NCBI RefSeq assembly: GCF_037975245.1
Contig: NC_092574.1
Location: 24,208,713 to 24,272,712 of the forward strand
Direction of reading: 5' to 3'
Length of the DNA stretch: 64,000 bases
Origin: Apostichopus japonicus
Lineage: Eukaryota; Echinodermata; Holothuroidea; Aspidochirotida; Stichopodidae
The position numbers and the translations under genes are program-made. The notes beneath the pieces are model-generated. The model was given only the letters and a program-made list of their open reading frames with translations, was not told the DNA's origin and made no database searches. This document shows positions 28,211 to 54,053 of this stretch, one piece after another; the first letter of the stretch is position 1, and each line of letters begins with the position of its first letter.

Positions 28211-29400
28211 GTGGGGGGGGGGGGGGTCAGGGAGGGGGTTTGTGTGAAAATTGTGGGATGGTGGGCAGGGAGGTAGGAGAATGGGGTGGGAGGGAGGAAT
28301 ATGGTGGAAGGGAGGAATATGGTGGAAGGAAGGGAGGAGTGTGGGGCAGGGAGGGAGGAGTATGAGGGCAGGGAGGAAGGAGAATGTGGGCAGGGAGGAA
28401 GGAGAATGGGGTGGGAGGGAGTGATATGGTGGAAAGGAGGAAGGATTGTGGGGCAGGGAGGGATATGGTGGAAGACAGGGAGGATTGTGGGGCAGGGAGT
28501 GAGGAGTATGAGGGCAGGGAGGAAGGAGAATGGGAGGAATATGGTGGAAGGGAGGGAGGAGTGTGGGGCAGGGAGGGAGGAGAATGTGGGCAGGGAGGAA
28601 GGAGAATGGGGTGGGAGGGAGTGATATGGTGGAAAGGAGGAAGGATTGTGGGGCAGGGAGGGATATGGTGGAAGACAGGGAGGATTGTGGGGCAGGGAGT
28701 GAGGAGTATGAGGGCAGGGAGGAAGGAGAATGGGATGGGAGGAATATGGTGGAAGGGAGGGAGGAGTGTGGGGCAGGGAGGAGGAGAATGTGGGCAGGGA
28801 GGAAGGAGAATGGGGTGGGAGGGAGTGATATGGTGGAAAGGAGGAAGGATTGTGGGGCAGGGAGGGATATGGTGGAAGACAGGGAGGATTGTGGGGCAGG
28901 GAGTGAGGAGTATGAGGGCAGGGAGGAAGGAGAATGGGATGGGAGGAATATGGTGGAAGGGAGGGAGGAGTGTGGGGCAGGGAGGGAGGAGAATGTGGGC
29001 AGGGAGGAAGGAGAATGGGATGGAAGGGAGGAATAGGGTGGAAAGGAGGAAGGATTGTGGGGCAGGGAGGGAGGAGTATGAGGGCAGGGAGGAAGGAGAA
29101 TGAGATGGGAGGAGGAATATGGTGGAAGGGAGGGAAGAGTGTGGGGCAGGGAGGGAGGAGTATGAGGGCAGGGAGGAAGGAGAATGGGGTGGGAGGGAGT
29201 GATATGGTGGAAAGGAGGAAGGATTGTGGGGCAGGGAGGGAGGAGTATGAGGGCAGGGAGGAAGGAGAATGAGATGGGAGGAGGAATATGGTGGAAGGGA
29301 GGGAAGAGTGTGGGGCAGGGAGGGAGGAGTATGAGGGCAGGGAGGAAGGAGAATGAGATGGGAGGGAGGAATACTGTGGAAGGGAGGTACACAGTGGCAG
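28211..29400. repeat. G-rich minisatellite with higher-order structure
   Basis: About 1.2 kb built of GGGCAGGGAGG, GGAGGAAGGAGAATG and ATATGGTGGAAGG modules. The word GTGATATGGTGGAAAGG recurs at 28421, 28621, 28824 and 29199, showing a higher-order unit of about 200 bp for the first three. At the right side a second unit containing AATGAGATGGGAGGAGG is duplicated at about 29098 and 29268. Runs of GGG make it a strong G-quadruplex candidate. The C-rich strand lacks stop codons in two frames, producing false frames of 458 and 418 codons. Confidence 0.95.
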
Positions 29401-30998: not shown

Positions 30999-33900
30999 CT
31001 AGGAGGAGCTTGTCTTGGTAATGTTCAGATTAAATAGGATGGATTTCAAGTTGAGGGAGAGGAAGGCATTCTCCTGGCATGGACCGGCTCTAGACATCTC
31101 CTGAATCAAAAGAGACAGACCTGATGTCTCAAATAACTTTCTCGTGTTTCTGAAAAGGCAATGGATGAAATAAATAAATTCACAGGCTTTTCATCACATG
31201 GAAGGGTGGGTACCTGAGGACCTGCTAAATGCAAGTTCCCTACAGCAACCACTGACTGCATGTTCACCCCAGCAACCACTGACAACAGCAAGCTCACCCT
31301 GGCAACCATCTAGCTACCAACTGCATTATCACCCTGGCAACCCCTAACTGCAATCCCACCTCTTGCAACTGCTTAAAGCAAACAACCCCCTGACAACCAC
31401 TTACTGCAAACTGCATGGCTACCCCAGCAACAGTGACTGACTATTAACAACTAACTCACCCTGGCAACCACTCACTTTCAACTACCAATCACCCTAGCAA
31501 CCACTATCTGCAACCCAGGGAACCATTTATTGCTTACTGCTGGCCCTCACCAAGGTTCAAAGCAGAGGTAATGAGACATGAACATTTAGTGTATGTTGGC
31601 TTTTAGATCAGCATTCTGCGAACCTTTAGGTTCACACACCAGGATCTTCTACAATGACTGAGCCATGACCTAACAGACCCCTACCACGAAGTGATGCTCA
31701 GAATTCATGAATGCTAGGTCAGACTTTCGACTTGAGGATAAAAGACAAAGTAAGTTAAGTCTTCTTTATCTATTGAACACAGTAGATAATATTTTCCCAT
31801 GTCTGCAAACCACTGAAAATAGTTTTTCGATCCACTTTTTGGGTCATGCCCAATAGTTTGTGGACCGTCAAGATGTTGGGTACAAAATAGATTAGTATCA
31901 CTTATTCTTACTTTAATTTTGACAGCTTCTGCAACAAAATGCTGATTTTTTCCAGTATTTTCAAGTCCAGAGAGGTCGATTTGAGAAGAAGACTGCAAGC
32001 CTGAAACCAACCTTCATTACAGCAACTTTCCAAAAACTTAAGCAAATATACTGGAAGGATAAAAGATAAGAAGAAGTGCAAAAAACACATTTAAAATGGT
32101 TCTTTCCGGAAGAGATCAAGAGCAAACTTAGTAAGAAATCCTTCTTTTCTTGAAAGGTGCGAGTGATTTCATAGAAAATGGTAATTCTAGGAGCAAAGGG
32201 GGGTTTTATCCATAGTTACAATCCAATATTTAAATCTGGTAGATTTCATCAATGTTTCACCACCAATAACATTCCTCAGAATATAGGTTAGCCATTAGCC
32301 TATCACATTGGTCAGAAAACATGGAATGAGTCACTGACATTTCTCATAAAATCAAGGGCGTAGGAACCGGGGGGGCTGGGGGGGCACCAGCCCCCCAGTG
32401 AAAAATATGGGGGGGCGGAATGCTATATTGCACCAAATTGCATCTGAGGCCACCTGGAAATGCAAAAAAATTCCAAAGGGGAGGGGGACACCGCCTCCCC
32501 TTAGACCACTCCCCCAGGCCGGCCATCAGTCTTCAGCCCCCCCCCACTCAAAAGTACCTTCCTACGCCACTGCATAAAATAGATCAGCTAGTCACACTGC
32601 TTTCAACAAGGATGTTTGATGAATTTACCTGATTCCATAGACATCTGTAGAAACACATCCACAGCTCCAGCAAGGATTGCTATGTTTGATGATTTCAGGA
32701 AGGGTAGAATGATATCAGTCGCCCTGTACTCTAGGAAAAGCTCCTTGGACCTCTCATCTTTCAAGTCGGCCCTTAAGACATCAAACACATTGGCCAGCAA
32801 GTCAACTGGGAAAGAAACAAGGCAGATAGCATAGCATTGCTGTTTCCATTTGAAACCTTTTAACCCCAGAAAGATATCAACACTTGTTACACATGCAAGT
32901 AAATGCAACAACGTTATCTTTGAATATATGGCTTCTACAAAACAGAGGAAAATAGAACCATTGATGGCAATAATCACTGTGATGCCATTCACCCTGTTGT
33001 TATTACATAATTCATAACATTACACAAATATATAAGCATTTGTTCCTCCCCCCCCTCCCCAAAGAAATAAAAAATCATAACATCAGTATGTAGTGTTTTT
33101 AAATAGTTATTGCCCTTCTGTAACCAAATAATCTGATTTTCTAAAGTAAAGACTAAAAGTAACTAAATAAGCTAAAAATTATTTTTGAAGATTTCTTACC
33201 TTGTGATAAAGTCCTCAGAATGATCAAAGAAGACAGAAAGCGAATATGTAAACTAGGGCTCTTGAAGAACAAAGACACCTTGGTTTTGCCTTCAGTCTCG
33301 GAGTGCGCCCTCAATCGCAACGCCGATGGTGTCCGATAAAGTTCTTCCCCTAACCTTCGGAGTGTCGACACCAATGAGACAGCCTGTTATTAAAGCATCA
33401 TACATAGGAATAAGGGCAACTAGAAGCAATAGCAAACTCATGTACTGCACACACTGACAACTTACACATTACTGTAGACTGATAGGAGACCGTGTCATGG
33501 TGGCACTATATATAACTTGCTTCCTTTATTTTCATAACCAAAGTCAGAAGACCTTGAATCAAAACAGGATGCCATAATACTTCAACTGAGCATCTGACAA
33601 TGCTAGTCTGTTTTATTCACAGAATATCATCTTATTATCACAATTGAAAATATATATCTCTAAATAGTATATCTGAAGACAAGCGCTTTTTCATGGACAA
33701 GAGAATGCAAAAGAGAAAGGGTAGTGTATTTAGTATTGAGGTTGACCTTACCTGTTCTTGCTGCAGTGAGTATGACAGTGCCCAAAGAATAAATTGTAAG
33801 CAAGGCAGATGAAGTTTACTACTGCTGGTTGGTAAATTGTGGAGGGTATCAACTAACAATGGCAAAATCTGCATAAAGACAAATTAGAAAACAAACATAA

Positions 33901-41782: not shown

Positions 41783-42058
41783 CTCTATTTGTCCTCTATT
41801 GTCATTTCCTCTAGTGTCCTTCATTGTCCTCTATTGTCATTTCCTCTTTTGTCCTTCATTGTCCTCTATTGTCATTTCCCCTATTGTCCTTCATTGTCCT
41901 CTATTGTCATTTCCTCTTTTGTCCTTCATTGTTCTCTATTGTCATTTCCTCTATTGTCCTTCATTGTCCTCTAATGTCCTTCATTGTCATCTATTGTCAT
42001 TTCCTCTATTGTCCTTCATTATCCTTCATTGTCCTCTATTGTCATATCCTCTATCGTC
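41783..42058. repeat. 35-bp minisatellite just past the GUF1 stop
   Basis: Tandem 35-bp units of the form TGTCCTTCAT, TGTCCTCTAT, TGTCATTTCC, TCTAT, about 7.5 copies, each made of three related 10-base sub-units. The array starts about 45 bp downstream of the GUF1 stop codon, so it is probably transcribed as GUF1 3' UTR, where the RNA would read GACAAUAGAGGA-like repeats. Confidence 0.92.
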
Positions 42059-42103
42059 CAGCAAACAGAATGCATGGGTCGCTAGAGTTGTCCTTTACCG
42101 ATG

Positions 42104-45100
42104 TCACCTCTTCAAGACTGACAGGAAGGCTTCCTTTGGTACTTCAACATTGCCAAATTTCTTCATCTTTTTCTTCCCTTCTGCTTGTCGCTTTAAGAGT
42201 TTCATTTTACGTGTAATGTCCCCTCCATACTGTGACGAAATAGAAAGAAATATTCATTATGAATCCCACATTTGAATAGCATCCAACTAGTACCCAACGT
42301 AACTACTGGTTACTAACGTACCTAGTTCACATTCCATATAACTAACACAACTTCCAGTGAACCATCCATAAAAGCATGTCCATCTAAAAAAGTACCGGGC
42401 TAAAGTTTCTAGCCAATAACAATGTCTTCTGAAAACCTTTTCCCCTATCATAAGCCCTGTTTATGTAGATATCTGTAATACTATTGTTTTCTTGTGGATA
42501 TGATAATTCTTTATTTCTTGCCATTAATCAATTTTATACGCATTAATACAAATTATTGCTGTAATAAATTGCCTTAATAAAGTCAACAACAATGTCTTTT
42601 GCAAACCTTTTTCTCCATATCATAAGCCCTGTTTATGTAGATATCTGTAATATTACTGTTTTCTTGTGGATATGATAATTCTTTATTTCTTGCCATTCAT
42701 CAATTTTATACACATTAATACAAATTATTGCTGTTATACAATTATTGTGGACATCATTGGACTGTCTGTATTTAACTTGAGAAGTTTCTTACGCATTTGG
42801 CCAAAACATTTTTTCTCAATGCTTTTATGGTCTCCCTGGCAACAATCTTGCTACCGATGGCTGCTTGTATTGCTACTTCGTAGAGTTGTCTCGGAATGGA
42901 CTCTTTCAGTTTGGCACAGACCGCTTTGCCAACTTCCCTGGACTTAGTTCTGTGAACAATGATTGCTAGTTCGTCGACCTCCTTGCTGTTAAGCAAGATA
43001 CGAAGCTTTATCAAGTCGGCTTCTTGATAACCGCTATCCTCATAATCAAAGCTGAAACAAAAACAGATTTAAACAATTTGGGATTGAGCAAAGATGTCAC
43101 AAAAGATTTAATGTAAAATTAACAAATTAAGGATTATGTCATAACTAAGAATTTTTTTTGATCTGCTGCTGCTGAAGTTATCCCATTATCTCAATAAGCA
43201 GGAAAGGTATTGAACCGCAACTCTCACTTAAGAGATTTGAGTTATCTGTCAAATGGAACCTTGGATATATGTGAACAGTTTCAGCCAGACTATAAATTGA
43301 TACAAAAGAGTTTGTCAAGTCACATAAATGTCCCCACAATTCTAAACAATATTTAACAGGGGTAAATAATGCTAATACATGAACGTACAGTTTATGAACA
43401 TGCAGTTATCGAGAGTTGATAACTAAGAATGACAAAAAGAAACTTATTTCGTAAAATTAGCTGAGGGTTTGTAAATTGATCTGTTTATTACCTTGCATAA
43501 CCTGAGGACACCGACTTTAACTGGTCGAAAAAATCCACCACAACTTCATTTAGTGGTAATCTGTACTTGAGGTAGATTCTACTACTATCCACGTACGTAA
43601 GACTCTCTTGCTCACCTCTCTTCCTCTGCATTGACGAAAGGAAAAACAAAAAGTCTGTGAAGTTACAATCTAGAATGTTTGGTTATCTCAGATTGATTAA
43701 GTCTGGAATAAAGTGGTTTCATTGATGTAGTGTGAATGCAAAGGCTGAAAATGGAGGGAGGGGGAAGAGGAGGGGGGGGAAGAGGGGTAGGAAGGGGATA
43801 GTGTGCAAATAGTACTTCATGTCAAATGGTATAAAATGTTTACAATTTTTGTGGACTCTTTGAATCAAATTTGATAATTTTTAACTGTTCAGGTTGTACT
43901 GTACATATCAGTCAAACATTTATGTCCTATACACTGACTTTAATGTTTTGTAATATTCTGTCTGTCACTGGGTGGATTGGGGGGGGGGGAAGGATGTTCT
44001 CCCCTTGATTTTGTTCTGGTGGGGGTGGGGGGGTGTACAGGTAAGATATGTGGCTGTCCCCCCTGCCTTATATAGTTATAGAGTACTTACAGTACAAAGG
44101 TTTATAACTTCTCTAAGATATTCATCTGGAGTGATGATAGTACCCAGGACCATAGGCTCATAGAAACACTCGGCTTGTTGGGGGTCAGGAAACTGTGGAT
44201 GGAATGATAAGCTGAAGTTAGGTGACAACAAAGCAATTGTAAAAATTATCACCTCATATGTGATTTTGAACTGACTCATTCTCTTAATCCTTTCTCTCCC
44301 CCCCCCCCTTCAATTCCTTGCCTCTGAAACAGAGATATTTCAGTGTAGAGTCATCAAATCCAATTTAAATGATTTTCATTGTAATTACTGAGTAACAGCA
44401 GATGTATGAGTTGTTTGGTGCATTGTGCACATTATTGCAAGCATATGTATACATACTATGCAAATCATAATATAATTCAAACTTATTCTATTTCTAAACA
44501 AACTTGAAAATTTGAGCATTGCATGGAAACTGTTAATATTTACTCTTAGCTATCAGTTTTGGAGGTTACAATCAAGCACACGTAAGAACACAAACAATTG
44601 AGCTTAACGAAAATCTATCACAAACGCAGCTTTGGAAAAGCAACCTAGAGTAGAGAAGCCTCTTTGCTGCAAATAGTTTAGCCCCTATGACTGGTCATGG
44701 AAAATTTCATAATTTATTCTGGAAATAAGTTGTTTCACCCATGGAAGGATTAAAGGTAAGAATGCAGAAAGAATCATAAAGATAATAATTACAAAACCAA
44801 CTCAATAATTCTCTTACATTGGCAGGGTTCTGTATAATGATTTCTTGGTTAGGTCCGTATAGCTTTTGGTTTGTTTTGGTGGATTTAAGCTTTGATTTAA
44901 ATGGAACGCTCGGAACGGTGACTATCACATTTGCGTTGTACTCCTGTTCCAGCCTCTGGTTAAAGACGTCCATGTGTAGTAAGCCCAGGAAGCCAAGCCT
45001 CCAACCTTGGCCTAATGCTGGGCTGGAAAAATAATTGCCAGTGGTAAAAGAAATTATAATTAAAAGTGATATGTTTAACTCACAAGACCCTCACCAGAAA

Positions 45101-48100
45101 CAGGAGTATTACAATTAAGGAAGAACATATATATGTACTTCGGTATACACAGTCTTGCTATTTCATTTGATGTCAGTCTGTCAATGATATCACACATACC
45201 TGCTGTCACTGTTTACTGTGACACTACTATCATTTAATATCAGTCTATCAATGATATCACACATACCTGCTGTCTCTGTTGACTGTGACACTGCTATCAT
45301 TTAATGTCGGTCTATCAATGATATCACACATACCTGCTGTCCCTGTTTACTGTGACACTACTATCATTTAATGTCAGTCTATCAATGATATCACACATAC
45401 CTGCTGTCCCTGTTGACTGTGACACTGCTATCATTTAATGTCAGTCTGTCGATGATATCACACATACCTGCTGTCCCTGTTGACTGTGACACTGCTATCA
45501 TTTAATATCAGTCTATCAATGATATCACACATACCTGCTGTCCCTGTTGACTGTGACACTGCTATCATTTAATATCAGTCTATCAATGATATCACACATA
45601 CCTGCTGTCCCTGTTGACTGTGACACTGCTATCATTTAATGTCAGTCTATCAATGATATCACACATACCTGCTGTCCCTGTTGACTGTGACACTGCTATC
45701 ATTTAATGTTAGTCTATCAATGATATCACACATACCTGCTGTCTCTGTTGACTGTGACACTGCTATCATTTAATGTCAGTCTATCAATGATATCACACAT
45801 ACCTGCTGTCCCTGTTGACTGTGACACTGCTATCATTTAATGTTAGTCTATCAATGATATCACACATACCTGCTGTCCCTGTTGACTGTGACAATGCTAT
45901 CATTTAATGTTAGTCTATCAATGATATCACACGTATCTGCTGTCACTGTTGACGGGGAACACTGCTATCATTTAATATTAGTCTATCAATGATATCACAC
46001 ATACCTGCTGTCCCTGTTGACTGTGACACTGCTATCATTTAATGTCAGTCTATCAATGATATCACACATACCTGCTGTCCCTGTTGACTGTGACACTGCT
46101 ATCATATCATGTCAGTCTATCAATGATATCACACATACCTGCTGTCTCTGTTGACTGTGACACTGCTATCATATCATGTCAGTCTATCAATGATATCACA
46201 CATACCTGCTGTCCCTGTTGACTGTGACACTGCTGTCATTTAATATCAGTCTATCAATGATATCACACATACCTGCTGTCTCTGTTGACTGTGACACTGC
46301 TATCATTTAATATCAGTCTATCAATGATATCACACATACCTGCTGTCTCTGTTGACTGTGACACTGCTGTCATTTAATGTCAGTCTATCAATAGCAGACC
46401 GAAGAGATAAATACTCAGACTGGTCCATTGGGTAGAGGCCGGCAAATACCTTAGAAAAAATATAAAATGTTCATGAATTAATTTTCACATCCAGCGCCCC
46501 CACACAACCAAACACCTGCTATGTGATCACGCGATGTGTGCATATCAATTATTGGTAAATAAATGCTCAGTGATAAGTGAAGTAGGCCTTTATTTTAATG
46601 CTGTACCTCACACTGGCTGACTAGACTGACATATGACAATCAGTTAAAACCAACCACTTGATTGAAGATAGTGTGTAGGTATTAGCAATATTCCGTTCAG
46701 CTTCAGGAAGCATTTTAGCCTTGGGTAGGTAATATCTACTCTACAAAACTTTGAACACATGAGGTGAATTAAAACAAAAAGATGCATAAAAATAAAGAAT
46801 TTGAAACTCACCATTGGCTTGGCAGCTCTAAATCCAGGCAAAGCTTCGACTGGATGGCCTGGCTTGTAAAATGTATCGCCAATACTAGCTTCTCTGATAT
46901 TATGCATTCCAGCAACCACATAGCCAACTTGTCCAGCAAGTCTAATGAATGAAGAAAGAAAACAGTAAAACAAATCTCAGTTAACCTTTATCCATATGTT
47001 GTGACGGCGTTACTTCGTGTCCAAGGAGGCTTAAACTTAAAGGCTGAGTCTGGTGAAAGACAATGTTAAAAACTTATATTGAACTTTTGCTCCTTTTCTA
47101 CCACTTACAATAGTAGAAACATCTCTAAAACTTAAGTCAGAAACTTCCTTTATTTATATGGAAATTAACATATTACTTACAGCTGCATTGTGGACTTTTG
47201 ATCTGGGTACATAATCCCTAAATCTTGAACTTCATAGGTTTTCTCAGAAAATGCTGATTGTATTTTGTCTCCTCTTTGCAGCCTCCCATCCATTACGGCT
47301 AGGTTTACGATTGCCCCTCTGTATCTGTTATACCAAGAGTCAAAGAGCAGCGCCCTCAGTGGTCGCTCAGGGTCACTAGGGGGGCTGCGGAGCAACAATG
47401 TTTGGAAAGCAAAGACAAAGAGCATCGTAGATCGATATCAATTATAAATTGATCTTCTAAACTTTAGAAGACTCATATAATTTAGTCCCTATTTACTAAG
47501 AATCACCACTTACAAGACAGCAGGTTTTCACTTTTACTTCCACAAATATACAAAAATGCAAATATCAAACTCACCAACAGACAGTTCAAAACAGACACAG
47601 ACCATATATTCAAATGAGAATAATCAATAGTGCAACAAATAGCAAAGATGTTATTATTGTACTACATCACAAGAGTTGGTCCTCTGCCAGATAGAGTCGA
47701 TTGCTGGACGTTCGTGATTCATGCATGTCAGAGCAATCATGGCTTCAGAGTACTTTTTGAATTATGGTTTAAATTATTTATGGACAGCAAGTAGTTTAAT
47801 ACTGCTTTCCTGATTTCTTACTATACATTCAGTGAGTTTATCACACCATTTGCATTCAAACTTCACCCTATATGGACACTGCTTATAACCATCCTCTGGG
47901 TTTCAATTAATTTTATGAAGATAACATTGAATATGAATTTCATCCATGAGTAACCTTTGGCAAACCAAAATTGCAAAGTTGCTATCAATGAGCACTTCTT
48001 AAACACGCATGACTATTCAGTAAGGATGTTGAATTATTCAGTTCTTTACCTTCGCAACACTCCTTACCTTGGAATTCGGTTAATCACAGCTGGCAGAATG

Positions 48101-51100
48101 GAACTAACACCAGTCCCTTGTTTTGCTGATATGTGCAAAATGTCTTTCTTATTGATATCAAATAAAGACTCTATTTGGTTAGCCACACTTTCTGGGTTTG
48201 CATTCTTCAAATCAATCTGCAAACCGAAATAAAGAAAAAGAAAAGAAAACAAGAAGACAAGATGAAAGAAAAAAAAAACAGATGACAAAGTGCAGTACTT
48301 TCATTAAGACTGAAAATGTTGTTTACTGTATGCAAAGGCGACAGAGGAAGCAACCAAGAAATATAAACAAATTATAGCTAAAGCTTTTATTTAATCTCTC
48401 TCTGTACATTGTAAATAATAACCTTTCTTATTTTCAGACTATGTACATTTTGTCTTTGCCAGGTATCCAGAGAGATATGAGTGATTAACTTGTTAACATA
48501 ACTTGTCAAAGTGTGCAAAATATAGGGGAGCCACATGTAAACTAGTGTAGCAGCAACAAGGGCGGCGGAACCGGGGGGGCACAGGGGGCACGTGCCCCCC
48601 CACTTTTCCTCAGATTAAAAATGTGCCCTTTTTCTACATAAAATTTCTAAATAACCAGAATGAAAACATTTCATGGTTCCTTGCTGCTGTTCATTAGTTC
48701 CATTCATAGGGAAAATTTCTAACAAAGCCCTAATACAACAACAGTAATTTATGCTCACAAACTTTTGTTGCCAAAGTAATGCTAAGCCCTGATATCAATT
48801 GCAACACACATCAGTGTGTGAAGACTATCTACCATTATCATCATACCAAGTTTGACGAAATTCCGACTAGCAATAGTAGCCAAGTAATTGCAATTTGGAG
48901 TATTTCACGTTTGACCCCATGACCTCATTAATATTCATGAAATGAGCACCAAAATCAACAGGGTTAATCTACTTACTATGGGCCACCCACTCACCAAGTA
49001 TGGTAATGATTGGTCATTCCCTTGTTGAGTTATTGTGCATACAAAACTTTTCATAACGAAATAATGCTAGGCCCCCCCCCCCCTTATAAACATGCATGAT
49101 ATCAATTGCAACACACATCAGTGTGCGGAGACTATCTACCAATATCATCATACCAAGTTTGACGAAATTCCAATAAATAGTAGCCAAGTTATTGCAACTT
49201 GGGAGTTTTTCACGTCTGACCCGTGACCTCATTAATATTTTTTAACTTTGACCTCGTATAACTTCGCACACGAAGGTCACACGGGGGTCAACCTATTGAC
49301 ATTTATGATCAGAAGGCACCTTTGACATCTGAAAATAGCATCGAAACTGTAAAAATCCCCAAAACATGAAAAGGTCACCAGAGGTCAAATTGAGGTCAAG
49401 GGTCACCCAGATGCGGGTCGACAATTGGATTAAATTGAAGCAACTCCCAACCCTAACGGACAATTCGTTCTCAAGTTATCGCAAAAATACTAGTTTTTTA
49501 TCATTAATTGACCTTTGGTGACCTCGGATCAAATGACCGTTAAGTTTGAAAATATTCCCCTATACCATTTGCAACTTGTCCCAAAATATCAACCGTGTCA
49601 CACCTTGGAACTGGGAATTATTGCACTAAATGTCTGAAAATTTACTTTGACCTCATATAACTTCACACACAAAGGTCACCTGGGGTACACCTATTGACAT
49701 TTTTGATTGGTGAGACGTGAATATAGCATCAAAACTGTAAAAATTCAAACATTTTTTCTTTGCCCATTTTCTCACCCAAAATACTAGTTTTTTAACATTA
49801 ATTGACCTTTGATGACCTCGGATCACATGACCGTTAAGTTTGAAAATATTCCTCTATACCATTTGCAACTTGTCCCAAAATATCAACCTTGTTACACCTT
49901 GGCCCTGGGAGTTATTGCATTAAATGTCTGAAAATTAACTTTGACCTTGTATAACTTTACACACAAAGGTCACCTGGGTGTCAACCCATTGACATTTTTG
50001 ATCGTAAGGTACCTTTGATATCCAAATCTAGCATCAAAACCAAACATTTTCTTTTTTGCCCGTTTTCTCCCAAACTAAGCACATTTTTTCTAATGTGACC
50101 TTTGACCTTGGTTTCAAATGTAGTTTGATCTGCTGATTCCAAAAATCAACACGATAAGTCTGTACAGCCATCCTAACTCCGACCGAAAACTTTGACCCCT
50201 TATAAGTTCGCACACGAAGGTCACACGGGGGTCAACCTATTGATATTTATGATCGGAAGGTACCTTTGACATCTGAAAATAGCATCGAAACTGTAAAAAT
50301 CCCCAAAACATGAAAAGGTCACCAGAGGTCAAATTGAGGTCAAGGGTCACCCAGATGTGGGTCGACAATTGGATTACACTGAAGCAACTCCCAACCCTAA
50401 CGGACAATTCGTTCTCAAGTTATCGCAAAAAAACTAGTTTTTTAACACTAATTGACCTTTGGTGACCTCAGATCACATGACCGTTAAGTTTCAAAATGTT
50501 TCCCTAACCAGTTCACAACTTGTCCCAAAATATCAACCTTGTCGCACATTGGCACTGGGAGTTATTGCAGTTTTAGTATTTTGGGTTTTTGGACCATAAC
50601 TGACCTTTGGTGACCTTTGTGGGCACCAAAAACAATAGGGTTCATCTACTCACTATGGGCCACCCACCCACCAAGTTTGATCATGATCAGTCAATCCCTT
50701 GTTGAGTTATCGTGCATACAAGCTAAAGTGTCACACACACACACACACACACGCATCCACATACACACACGCCAACCTGAATACATAGGTTCCTTTGCTT
50801 TTAGCAAGGAACCAAAAAAGCGAAACCCACGTCGAATGAAATATTTCGGGAAGTTTTGTTTACTACCACAATCGTAGGAGCCCAATTTGATTTGGGGGGC
50901 TGTAACGACTTGCCCGAAAAATATTACCAAAATTTTTCGCGCGTTCAACATGTTAATGTGCATATCATATAGGCATGCGTTGGTTATTGCATCGCATGCC
51001 AATAACATGCAATCATTTTTGCCGTGTTATAACCCTTCCAAATCGGTTATAATTATTGGGAAAGTCGTTACAATAATAATGATCATAATAATATCAGTTT

Positions 51101-54053
51101 AACCATTGAAAAACACATAGAAAATTACTTTTCTTTCAGTATTTTGACATATTTCATTTGCTTTCATGCATGTATCGATCGCGTGTGCAGGGACTTGGAC
51201 TTTATAATGATTTCACCTCATTTTGTTTTTTTTTCCTTGTTTCCCAATTTGCACATTAGATACTGCAGTGCTAGTATGCATTGTTTCCTTGGGGAGGGGG
51301 GGGGGCTGCGTTGATGGAGTGATGTGTATACGCAAATAAGATAATACAATAAGAGTTAATAGGGTACTAAATATCAGTCCAATCGAATTTCTGCAAAGTG
51401 CCCTTCGACGTTGGTGCCCCCCCAGATTCAAAGTGCTTCCGCCGCCCTTGAGCAGCAATGCTGCAGATTCTCAATACTTTGCAAGTGAAAGGGATATTCC
51501 AGTAGCAGAAATATATTGCTAAATAGAAATACTGTTAAGTTTTCCAATCTTTTAGGTGAAAACCAAATCATCACAGCATTTTCGCATGACAAAGATAATA
51601 TGCACAACAGCATTATTAAATGCTGTTGGCAACAGCATTGTGAAATGATTTCATTTGACAATTAAGCTGATATTATCTGCTTCTTTTCTACAAATTATTT
51701 ATGCACAGAGGGAAACAGTATTTCTAACAAGCTGCATTTTGACAAAATTGTAAATACAGAGAACATTCACATTCACAGATTCCAAATGTAACTATAAACT
51801 TTTATTAGACCAATCACAAGACAAAATCTAATCATGTCTTTTCTTTTCATGCATGACATCAACAAGCTGGTCACATTAGTCAACCTACCTTATTTATTAC
51901 TGGTATTATGTGCAGATCAGATTCAAATGCCAGATAAAAGTTTGCAACTGTCTGAGCCTGCACACCTTGGTTTGCATCAACCACAAGGAGGACGCCCTGA
52001 CATGCTGCTAATGACCTGGAAACCTCATAGTTGAAATCAACATGCCCCTGTAATGTGGAAATCAACTTACATAAATTCAAATAAATTTGATAGAACAAGG
52101 TAAACAAATATGCACCTTTCGAGTTTCGAAGTTATGAAACCATCCCTCTTTATAATGAGGTTGGTCCAAACTAACTAACATACTGATAAATTCTCTTCAA
52201 AATTCATATTTCAGTTTACTGTAAATTTTACAGAGCTGATTAAGTCTGCATAGACTTTTACGATTCTGAGGAACACCTGCTAATTAGCAATATTACCTAA
52301 AATGAGACACATTTTGGGATAAAGCAGTAAACAGTGTCCATGAGCAACAGTGCATGAGCACATATAAAAATATAACCTGTGGTTATAAACAGCTTACAGA
52401 GCACAAAATTCTGAAACCCTGGAACCTTTATGAATAATTCCAACTGAAAGGCCTCTTCCAAAGCCTTCTCCCTCCCCTCTCCTGTATAGTCTAGTATGAT
52501 TTTGAAATACTCACTGGGGTGTCAATTAAATTCAAAAGATATCTCTCTCCCTCGTGTTCGTAAATCATTGATGCTGTTTGTGCTTTCACAGTGATTCCTC
52601 TCTCCTTTTCAACTTGTAATTTGTCCAAAAACTGTTTATTTTCCACTTTGCTGGAGATGGTACCTGTCAACAGGTTAAATGATATTTGAAGATGGATACA
52701 TCATCAACCTTTTAAAATATTTCAAAGCAATATGAAAAAGTGATCATGATTGAAACTAGCTTTATAGCAGAACAATTTAGCATTAACCACAACTGGTTCT
52801 AAAGTTGTACAGTATGTTGCATTTAACTGAAGTGATGTATTATGAAACAGTGCTACTTAATGAAAGATAATTTCAATGAAAGATTGCTGGAATCTATGAA
52901 AATATATTCAAATACATACAATCCGTTAATGGCTCACAAATGTACTTATATTGAAACATATTCAACTGTGCAGAAGTCTATTTTCATTAACTGTGTGCCT
53001 GTTATATATATATATGGCATAAACGTGTAACAGTTAAAAAGTTTTGCAAATGAAATAGCCCTGAAAAGATGCACTTTTCTTCCTTTGGCTACTAAAGGAA
53101 AACATTTCTCGACAGGTACACCATTTTTGTAAAAGGCCATGGCCAGGTCACTTTCCTTTCTTGGATGGAAACATTGTTGATTCACTCCTCACACTATGGC
53201 TCTCCCTGTGTCCTACTTCTATACAGCCACCTGTTCAGAACAACAATAGTGGATTTGATTTATTAGCTTTGAAACCTCACCTGTTAGTTCCAGTAATCTG
53301 TCTGCCAGAGTGCTCTTACCATGGTCAACATGGGCAATTATACTGAAGTTCCTGATGTGAGACACCGGAAACTGAGACATATCAAGTTCAACATCTGCCT
53401 GAGAAAAGACAAAGTATAAACTGTAGGCTGCTGAAGAATGTATGAAACATTTGAAAATGTACACATTTTCAGCTGAAATCTGACATAAGAATTCTAAATG
53501 ATATACTTCTTAGATCAGTACTGTGGCAGAAATTATATGTAGTGAGTAAAGCAATATTTGTTCTTAAATCATTCAATAGGCTGCATACCAAATAGAGCAA
53601 GTTGGATGTTTAACACTGTTGGTACATGGAAACATATATAACCCAGTGTTGAGTGCTGGTATTTCCGTATTGGTTTTTCAGTATCATTCACCATCCAAGG
53701 CACCAGTGTATCACAGAGGACTAACTTGTTGCATTACAGTACTGGTACCAATTTGATGAATTGGTATCCAGCCGGATTTGGTACCTCGATTCTTCTGGAA
53801 ATAGCGTACCAGAGGCAGAACTGATAAGACTAGTTGAAGATGATATGCTACTCACTTGCTGGGAAAATGTTTTTGATGCTGAATATGGCTTCATCTGTAT
53901 ACACGTTTGTACTCGCCTTGGTGTTGGACAATTGACCAATCTGAACTTTCGGTAGGAGAGACAGCATGCACTGATTCTAGTACTACTGGTTACAGTGACA
54001 TTTCTGCAGGGGACAACAGCTTTAGCTGTCCTACAAATCTTAGAAAACAACAT
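42104..54053 (-). CDS. GUF1: GUF1, mitochondrial translation factor EF4/LepA
   Basis: Mitochondrial GTPase that acts on ribosomes (back-translocation or quality control by family knowledge). Minus-strand exons: 54053-53856, 53398-53281, 52663-52515, 52047-51889, 48216-48068, 47384-47181, 46941-46812, 46449-46340, 45022-44818, 44192-44091, 43625-43492, 43051-42793 and 42229-42104 (stop TGA). All are GT-AG and in phase: 680 residues, human 669. Residues 1-66 contain no D or E and many R, K and S, a clear mitochondrial presequence. G motifs: AHVDHGKS 88-95, DTPG 153-156, NKID 207-210, SAK 238-240. Introns split DTP|G and NK|ID. Later come [43 protein letters not shown], and the EF4-specific C-terminal domain with [26 protein letters not shown] and [20 protein letters not shown]. 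No catalytic residue is missing. Exon 8 feeds the 67-bp array; intron 4 carries a 2.9-kb transposon. Confidence 0.97.
42411..42739. repeat. Tandem duplication in last GUF1 intron
   Basis: Two copies of about 150 bp, about 170 bp apart (42411-42563 and 42586-42739). They share CATAAGCCCTGTTTATGTAG, TTTTCTTGTGGATATGATAA and CATTAATACAAATTATTGCT. They differ by a few substitutions. The right copy lies about 55 bp from exon 12. Confidence 0.9.
45153..46392 (-). repeat. 67-bp array copied from GUF1 exon 8 and its donor
   Basis: Read on the minus strand, each unit is 53 bases of exon 8 (coding [17 protein letters not shown] plus AG), then the intron start GTATGTGTGATATC. The exon itself is the first unit (46340-46392). 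Seventeen further full copies follow in the intron, plus a partial one at the far end (about 45153-45194). Donor positions repeat every 67 bases (one unit is 68). One unit, near 45932, has lost its donor (GT changed to AT). Changes between copies are few, and several are silent in the exon frame. Confidence 0.97.
49372..49405 (+). promoter_or_regulatory. DR4-DR5-DR1 nuclear-receptor-like half-site cluster (1)
   Basis: Four half-sites in one direction: AGGTCA 49372-49377, four bases, AGGTCA 49382-49387, five bases, AGGTCA 49393-49398, one base, GGGTCA 49400-49405. By established spacing rules these read as DR4, DR5 and DR1. It is inside the transposon at 48557-51450. Binding is not shown by sequence alone. 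Confidence 0.45.
50316..50349 (+). promoter_or_regulatory. DR4-DR5-DR1 half-site cluster (2)
   Basis: The same four half-sites with the same spacings as at 49372, as part of the internal duplication of the element. The surrounding sequence differs by a few substitutions, but the half-sites are unchanged. Confidence 0.45.
50729..50770. repeat. (AC)n microsatellite
   Basis: A run of CA dinucleotides, pure for about 22 bases and then interrupted, inside the large hAT-like element directly after the block ending GTTATCGTGCATACAAGC. Confidence 0.85.

Follow-up and report, generated by a model that had tools for sequence, protein, structure and literature searches.

Intron 8 of the GUF1 gene of the sea cucumber Apostichopus japonicus opens with a minisatellite whose unit is the end of exon 8 together with its 5' splice site, so that 17 extra copies of this exon–intron boundary, 16 of them with an intact donor, lie between the functional donor and exon 9. 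The array was studied in a 64,000-nt stretch of genomic DNA (the window, to which all positions refer unless another contig is named). It confirms the reading of the first-pass annotation, which had proposed both the origin of the repeat at the boundary and these copy numbers, and it illustrates that a minisatellite can multiply a splice signal in a gene with an intact reading frame. We conclude that the array is probably a tolerated intronic minisatellite, in which exon definition would select the first donor and NMD would serve as a backstop.

The gene and the parts of it that border the array are as follows.

GUF1 gene, exons 2–13: 42104..53398, minus strand; 614 codons plus stop, uninterrupted, with GT-AG introns
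GUF1 exon 1: start near 54053, minus strand; the resolved exons are 2–13
GUF1 exon 8: 46340..46449, minus strand; 110 nt, the last 53 nt belonging to unit 1
GUF1 intron 8: 45023..46339, minus strand; 1317 nt from donor 1, 177 nt if from donor 18
GUF1 exon 9: 44818..45022, minus strand; its acceptor lies past the array

The GUF1 product is the mitochondrial translation factor EF4/LepA, and the gene matches the lepA family over its length (TIGR01393, residues 14–613; 842.6 bits against a cut-off of 533.9). Among the matches listed, the nearest protein to the window's GUF1 is that of Holothuria leucospilota (82%), with other echinoderms at 70–76%. In the assembly of 671,581,487 bases and 35 contigs, 12 exon matches fall on a single contig (C14); a second GUF1 copy was rejected, the remaining hits being three weak matches (49–51%) on contig C13. 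The protein junction of exons 8 and 9, NRDS|SPALG, is free of gaps across 10 aligned sequences, which come from the window, one sea cucumber, two sea urchins, two starfish, a brittle star, a crinoid, a hemichordate and a gar. Correct splicing must occur, since the gene is single-copy, its 614 codons are uninterrupted and the junction is conserved in all 10 proteins. A truncated or altered GUF1 in a near relative was also considered and set aside, the top identity being 69% in the best 120 of 3381 proteins; in the best 120 of 3300 proteins of a second search the top identity was 84% (entry P0241, similar by eye to the Holothuria protein). Elsewhere around the gene, the window holds a 35-bp tandem array at 41783–42059, directly after the GUF1 stop codon (42104), a 172-bp duplication at 42414–42743 within GUF1 intron 12 and, downstream of GUF1, a minus-strand CCDC138 match at 32603–33019 (CCDC138_C, E 7.3e-20).

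The array consists of 18 head-to-tail units on the minus strand (46392–45186) and a partial copy. Each unit has 53 nt of exon 8 sequence, from the exon's end, and 14 nt of intron 8.

Unit 1: 46326..46392, minus strand; last 53 nt of exon 8 and the 14 intron nt that follow; first donor base 46339
Units 2–18: 45186..46325, minus strand; 17 extra copies inside intron 8, 16 of them with CAG|GTATGTG
Unit 7: 45923..45990, minus strand; 68 bp, the most diverged unit, with its donor lost (CAG|ATACGTG at 45936)
Partial copy closing the array: 45156..45185, minus strand; 30 nt with a 2-nt insertion

Donors follow one another at 67 bp in 16 of the 17 steps, the exception being the 68-bp step into unit 7. 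CAG|GTATGTG is kept in 17 of the 18 units, and it is unit 7 that has lost the GT. Tandem Repeats Finder (TRF) reported the array at 45163–46392 with a period of 67, 18.3 copies, 95% matches and a score of 2192; with head-to-tail copies and a unit within 10–100 bp, it is a minisatellite. Allowing at most 3 mismatches, a 22-mer that includes the donor is found 18 times in the window, where none would be expected from 100 shuffles. When the unit was searched against the 671.6-Mb assembly, with only the best candidates scored, all 18 matches sat within the GUF1 array, and a dispersed repeat was rejected on this search; viral contigs gave no match. The 17 intact units vary at 12 sites, with a mean pairwise difference of 4.2%. 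Adjacent units differ less than they do in shuffled order (2.31 against 2.85 differences, p=0.010), as local duplication predicts. Separately, the window contains a complex purine-rich tandem array at 28258–29387, with a 204-bp period over part of it and a 22-bp period over the whole.

The conserved protein junction is produced by donor 1 only, which agrees with the earlier claim that the first donor is needed. Through donors 2–18 the frame reads AGC AGG TAT GTG TGA, the immediate stop that the first-pass annotation had foreseen; it is the same TGA in every case, ending 10 nt past donor 1 and lying at least 57 nt upstream of the next junction. These donors would extend exon 8 from 110 nt to 177–1250 nt, and splicing from donors 17 and 18 would remove introns of 244 and 177 nt. 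Local sequence separates the donors poorly, because the intact later donors match donor 1 over at least 8 nt on the upstream side and at least 16 nt on the downstream side. They do differ in position: donor 1 is nearest the exon 8 acceptor, and donor 18 is nearest the exon 9 acceptor.

Two positional rules therefore make opposite predictions, exon proximity favouring donor 1 and intron proximity favouring donor 18. Five minigenes that each carried two identical 5' splice sites and had flanking introns of 365 nt used the upstream site exclusively; under intron definition the downstream donor was preferred, and this downstream preference was described for the LS class, taken here to mean a long upstream and a short downstream intron (PMC9225289). 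By analogy, exon definition and use of donor 1 would be expected for GUF1 exon 8, since intron 7, at 362 nt, is close in length to the introns of the minigenes. The last donors form short introns, however, so that the exon- and intron-proximity rules compete in GUF1, and the intron-centric rule, in favouring donors 17 and 18, points against the reading that we prefer.

Based on these data, we propose a plausible history for the array. First, a 67-bp segment straddling the boundary between exon 8 and intron 8 would have been duplicated in tandem, and slippage or unequal exchange may then have raised the number to about 18.4 copies, lengthening intron 8 from perhaps 147–177 nt to 1317 nt. The exon 8 acceptor would be paired across the 110-nt exon with the nearest donor, that of unit 1. 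The identical later donors would be passed over by the spliceosome, because no exon is defined at a donor that lacks a good upstream acceptor of its own. Should a later donor occasionally be chosen, or the intron be retained, the TGA within 10 nt of donor 1 would be exposed and lead to NMD; as exon junctions lie downstream of this TGA, mis-spliced transcripts should be removed at little cost. That NMD and exon definition operate in sea cucumbers is assumed here by analogy with other animals. NMD has been proposed as a cover for the imperfect splicing of new introns in Drosophila (PMC2809761), and the same cover would fit GUF1.

A different view of the array, which we regard as unlikely, is that it acts as a splicing rheostat, in which a low level of later-donor use rises with copy number and feeds NMD. 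If so, each added identical donor would send slightly more pre-mRNA to NMD, and the result would be a heritable and variable drop in GUF1 output. This view draws on the identity of the intact later donors with donor 1 in the flanks described above, on the premature stop that every later donor brings, and on the short introns of donors 17 and 18, which an intron-proximity rule favours. The donor CAGGTATGT also agrees with the U1 consensus at 8 of 9 positions, the highest value among the gene's 11 donors (5–7 for the others). A position matrix made from the gene's other donors, however, gives the exon 8 donor an intermediate score (6.33), lower than those of two incidental sites at 45094 and 45083. 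The exclusive use of the upstream site by identical-donor minigenes under exon definition (PMC9225289) likewise argues against a rheostat, as does the pattern of variation among the units.

None of the 12 variable sites of the 17 intact units falls in the donor 9-mer, a result that is not significant (P=0.15), and selection on the donors was rejected. A comparison of donors with other unit positions, which the first-pass annotation had suggested, thus did not find the donors significantly more conserved, and its caution that intact donors may simply reflect homogenisation is in keeping with this value and with the likeness of neighbouring units. Three further counts hint at possible constraint around the donor, all of them too liberal because the units share ancestry: every deviation in the donor 9-mers (3.8 expected, 0 observed; Poisson 0.023, which ignores shared ancestry), variable sites in the 14 intron nt (0/12, P=0.044) and variable sites in the terminal 22 nt of each unit (0/12, P=0.005, for a stretch picked after seeing the data). 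Seven of the 12 variable sites are at third codon positions, a weak bias (p=0.034) that may point to an exonic origin of the variants followed by copying, or may be due to chance.

Coding constraint was seen on unit 1 only. Residues T327, L326 and S332 are invariant in 10 of 10 aligned GUF1 proteins, and intronic copies are changed at invariant residues where unit 1 is not. A T-to-I change is found in units 2, 3, 7, 13, 14 and 18; further changes are L-to-P in unit 17, S-to-I in unit 8 and R-to-S in unit 18, while units 4 and 5 have in-frame stops and unit 7 a frameshift. Unit 1 carries none of these.

RNA folding did not single out donor 1 either. Units 2–4 fold no better than shuffled sequences (z +1.29). 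For unit 1 the donor 9-mer has a predicted unpaired probability of 0.0206, within the range of the other intact units (0.0044–0.0337; unit 7, 0.196), and a role for RNA structure in marking donor 1 was rejected. A regulatory reading of the array, whether as tuning by copy number or as the U1 sink suggested in the first-pass annotation, thus receives no support from donor conservation, RNA fold or the changes in the intronic copies.

The arrangement of motifs in the units is also that of a poly(A) signal next to a U1 site: ATTAAA is present in 16 of 18 units and the GU-rich GTATGTGTG in 17 of 18, 33 nt after ATTAAA, and all 15 ATTAAA/AATAAA hexamers of intron 8 fall within the array. Donor-bound U1 might then silence premature polyadenylation (telescripting), and limiting U1 would give a stable truncated GUF1 by cleavage in the array. 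Telescripting has been described for human, mouse and Drosophila (PMC5499120), which counts in favour of this idea. All copies stem, however, from one seed with ATTAAA in its coding sequence, so that the number of ATTAAA copies is no evidence of function. Moreover, no GUF1 ending at exon 8 was seen in relatives at least 70% identical, among the best 120 of 3381 proteins. We judge this explanation very unlikely.

Scarless recursive splicing, in which CAG|GTATGTG would act as acceptor and then as donor and stepwise removal would leave no trace in the mRNA, is more improbable still. AG|GT is present at the junction of every intact unit, and stepwise removal would restore the correct mRNA. The CAG directly before the donors is nonetheless a poor acceptor: under a crude acceptor model made from 11 acceptors, the best of the 18 scores −7.62 and four others −9.83 to −9.19, all below the 12 real acceptors of the gene (−5.72 to 14.59). 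The sequence upstream is poor in pyrimidines (fraction 0.31, against 0.62–0.88 at real acceptors) and holds several other AGs; with AG|GT present and a pyrimidine fraction of 0.31, the junctions do not qualify as ratchet points. A CACAG located 16 nt before the donor in many units scores 2.8–3.6, inside the range of real acceptors in the same crude model, and such sites are among the top eight acceptor-model sites of intron 8; their use inside the array, giving a 16-nt exon, is unlikely.

An inflated or wrong copy number is equally far-fetched: tandem repeats are prone to mis-assembly, but the 18 units include 15 distinct sequences, and the window contains no N. An A. japonicus assembly was built from HiFi reads with a mean length of 14.7 kb at 64-fold coverage (PMC10344927), far longer than the 1.2-kb array if that assembly is the present one.

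The array is reminiscent of the Rogers model, in which introns are gained by tandem duplication of AGGT-containing segments, with cases in vertebrate ATP2A1 and in the fission yeast genes SPOG_01682 and SOCG_00815, the latter having several non-identical units of 24 nt (PMC4974935, PMC3629103). As in these cases, a segment with a proto-splice site has been copied in tandem, the copies are partly or wholly intronic and, as in fission yeast, several non-identical units are present. The model makes a new intron from exon sequence, whereas the GUF1 unit spans a 5' boundary, its copies are intronic and the CAG that precedes the donor is poor as an acceptor. A duplicated AG|GT does not supply the GT and AG of a new intron here, because the intron 8 acceptor (45023) lies outside the array and the unit CAG scores below the 12 real acceptors. 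A duplication in a potato RdRp gene likewise crosses an exon–intron boundary and copies a real splice site (PMC4974935); as described there, it is a single event at a 3' splice site that gave a new intron, whereas GUF1 has 17 copies at a 5' splice site and shows no sign of a new intron. CeRep25B of C. elegans is, like the GUF1 array, an intronic minisatellite with a possible effect on splicing; in the available part of that report, its units hold candidate regulatory motifs, with no copied coding boundary or donor described (PMC4039745). In titles and abstract openings of the open-licence literature, no donor-bearing array at an exon boundary was found.

Choice among identical donors has so far been studied with two engineered sites. 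The minigenes of PMC9225289 resemble GUF1 in that identical donors compete for one exon, and differ in having two such sites in transfected cells, as against 17 natural and graded ones. GUF1 thus amounts to a natural library, a single-copy gene in which 17 identical donors span exon lengths of 110–1250 nt and intron lengths of 1317–177 nt.

The first-pass annotation had called arrays of this kind unusual, which is not supported for this genome. Tandem arrays are common in it, supporting the tolerated-minisatellite reading: a background sample of 199,001 bases (including 2500 N), taken as 20 stretches, 19 chosen by position and one beside the window, contained 15 arrays with a period of at least 20 and at least 3 copies, two of them with at least 10 copies. 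A strong donor in at least half of the copies was found in the GUF1 array only, 1 of 21 when the 15 sampled arrays are combined with six from the window. Genome-wide, three occurrences of MAGGTRNGT at 35–65-base gaps gave 1184 matches against 1057 for the reversed control; the corresponding counts were 321 against 77 for CAGGTATGT and 65 against 56 for CAGGTAAGT. We claim no general excess of donor arrays from these numbers, because single large arrays dominate the pattern counts.

We then read 24 other donor arrays, 13 from contig C1 and from C2 up to 24 Mb, and 11 from C3–C10. Four of them start at the donor of an exon with a protein-family match.

Malate/L-lactate dehydrogenase array (L038): G000:C2:3107500-3108700, positions 860-1201; Ldh_2, E 1.2e-14
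PSMD13 donor array: PSD13_N, E 2.8e-16; proteasome subunit 13 in the PDB, E 3e-18
RWD-domain array (L046): G000:C1:11373400-11374600, continuing to 11377402; RWD, E 1.6e-5, above the cut-off
Calbindin/secretagogin-like EF-hand array, irregular: PDB match, E 1.8e-11; Pfam EF-hand_1, E 1.3e-5, just below the cut-off

Only the dehydrogenase array among these four clearly has the build of GUF1: its 67-bp unit joins about 42 nt of exon to about 25 nt of intron, five donors lie in the piece read, and a stop precedes donor 2. The RWD-domain array runs for about 3 kb from the exon's donor as short units with CAG|GTATGT every 27–59 bases. In the PSMD13, RWD-domain and calbindin/secretagogin-like units the exon content is 2–7 nt; these arrays too start at exon donors and further weaken the claim of rarity.

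Among the remaining arrays, 15 of the 24 had no evident exon in the piece read (mostly 0.7–1 kb on the exon side, so that a more distant exon would escape notice), and in L044 and L056 the frame is open up to the donor only, with no family match. Three others, L049, L042 and L051, contain about 44, 28 and 24 exon-derived nt in an open frame; none had a family match, the best value being 0.048 (L049), below the cut-off. Two of these are likely exons.

L042: G000:C2:13554900-13556000, about 360-120, minus strand; likely exon, with a tttcag acceptor by eye
L049: G000:C2:23926200-23928200, 580-1, minus strand, the array continuing down to 23925275; likely exon, with a good acceptor by eye

With at least one more gene of the GUF1 build and these candidates, ordinary RNA-seq from one animal could test the positional rules and measure how often the choice of donor fails. 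It is quite improbable, in our view, that donor arrays at exon boundaries are a recurrent device here whose copy number tunes gene output within populations as a splicing rheostat. Were a rheostat at work, a unit that is a multiple of three and free of stops would add repeat units to the protein. L049 is built of 51/52-bp units with about 44 nt of exon and the donor CAG|GTGAGT, and its frame stays open for 246 nt past donor 1; nine donors lie in the fetched piece, and some 20 places were listed for it in the genome-wide MAGGTRNGT search. L042 repeats the exon's last 28 nt and donor in 33-bp units; this length is divisible by three and the frame runs beyond donor 2 with no stop, so that its later donors would be predicted to preserve the reading frame, each unit adding 11 residues.
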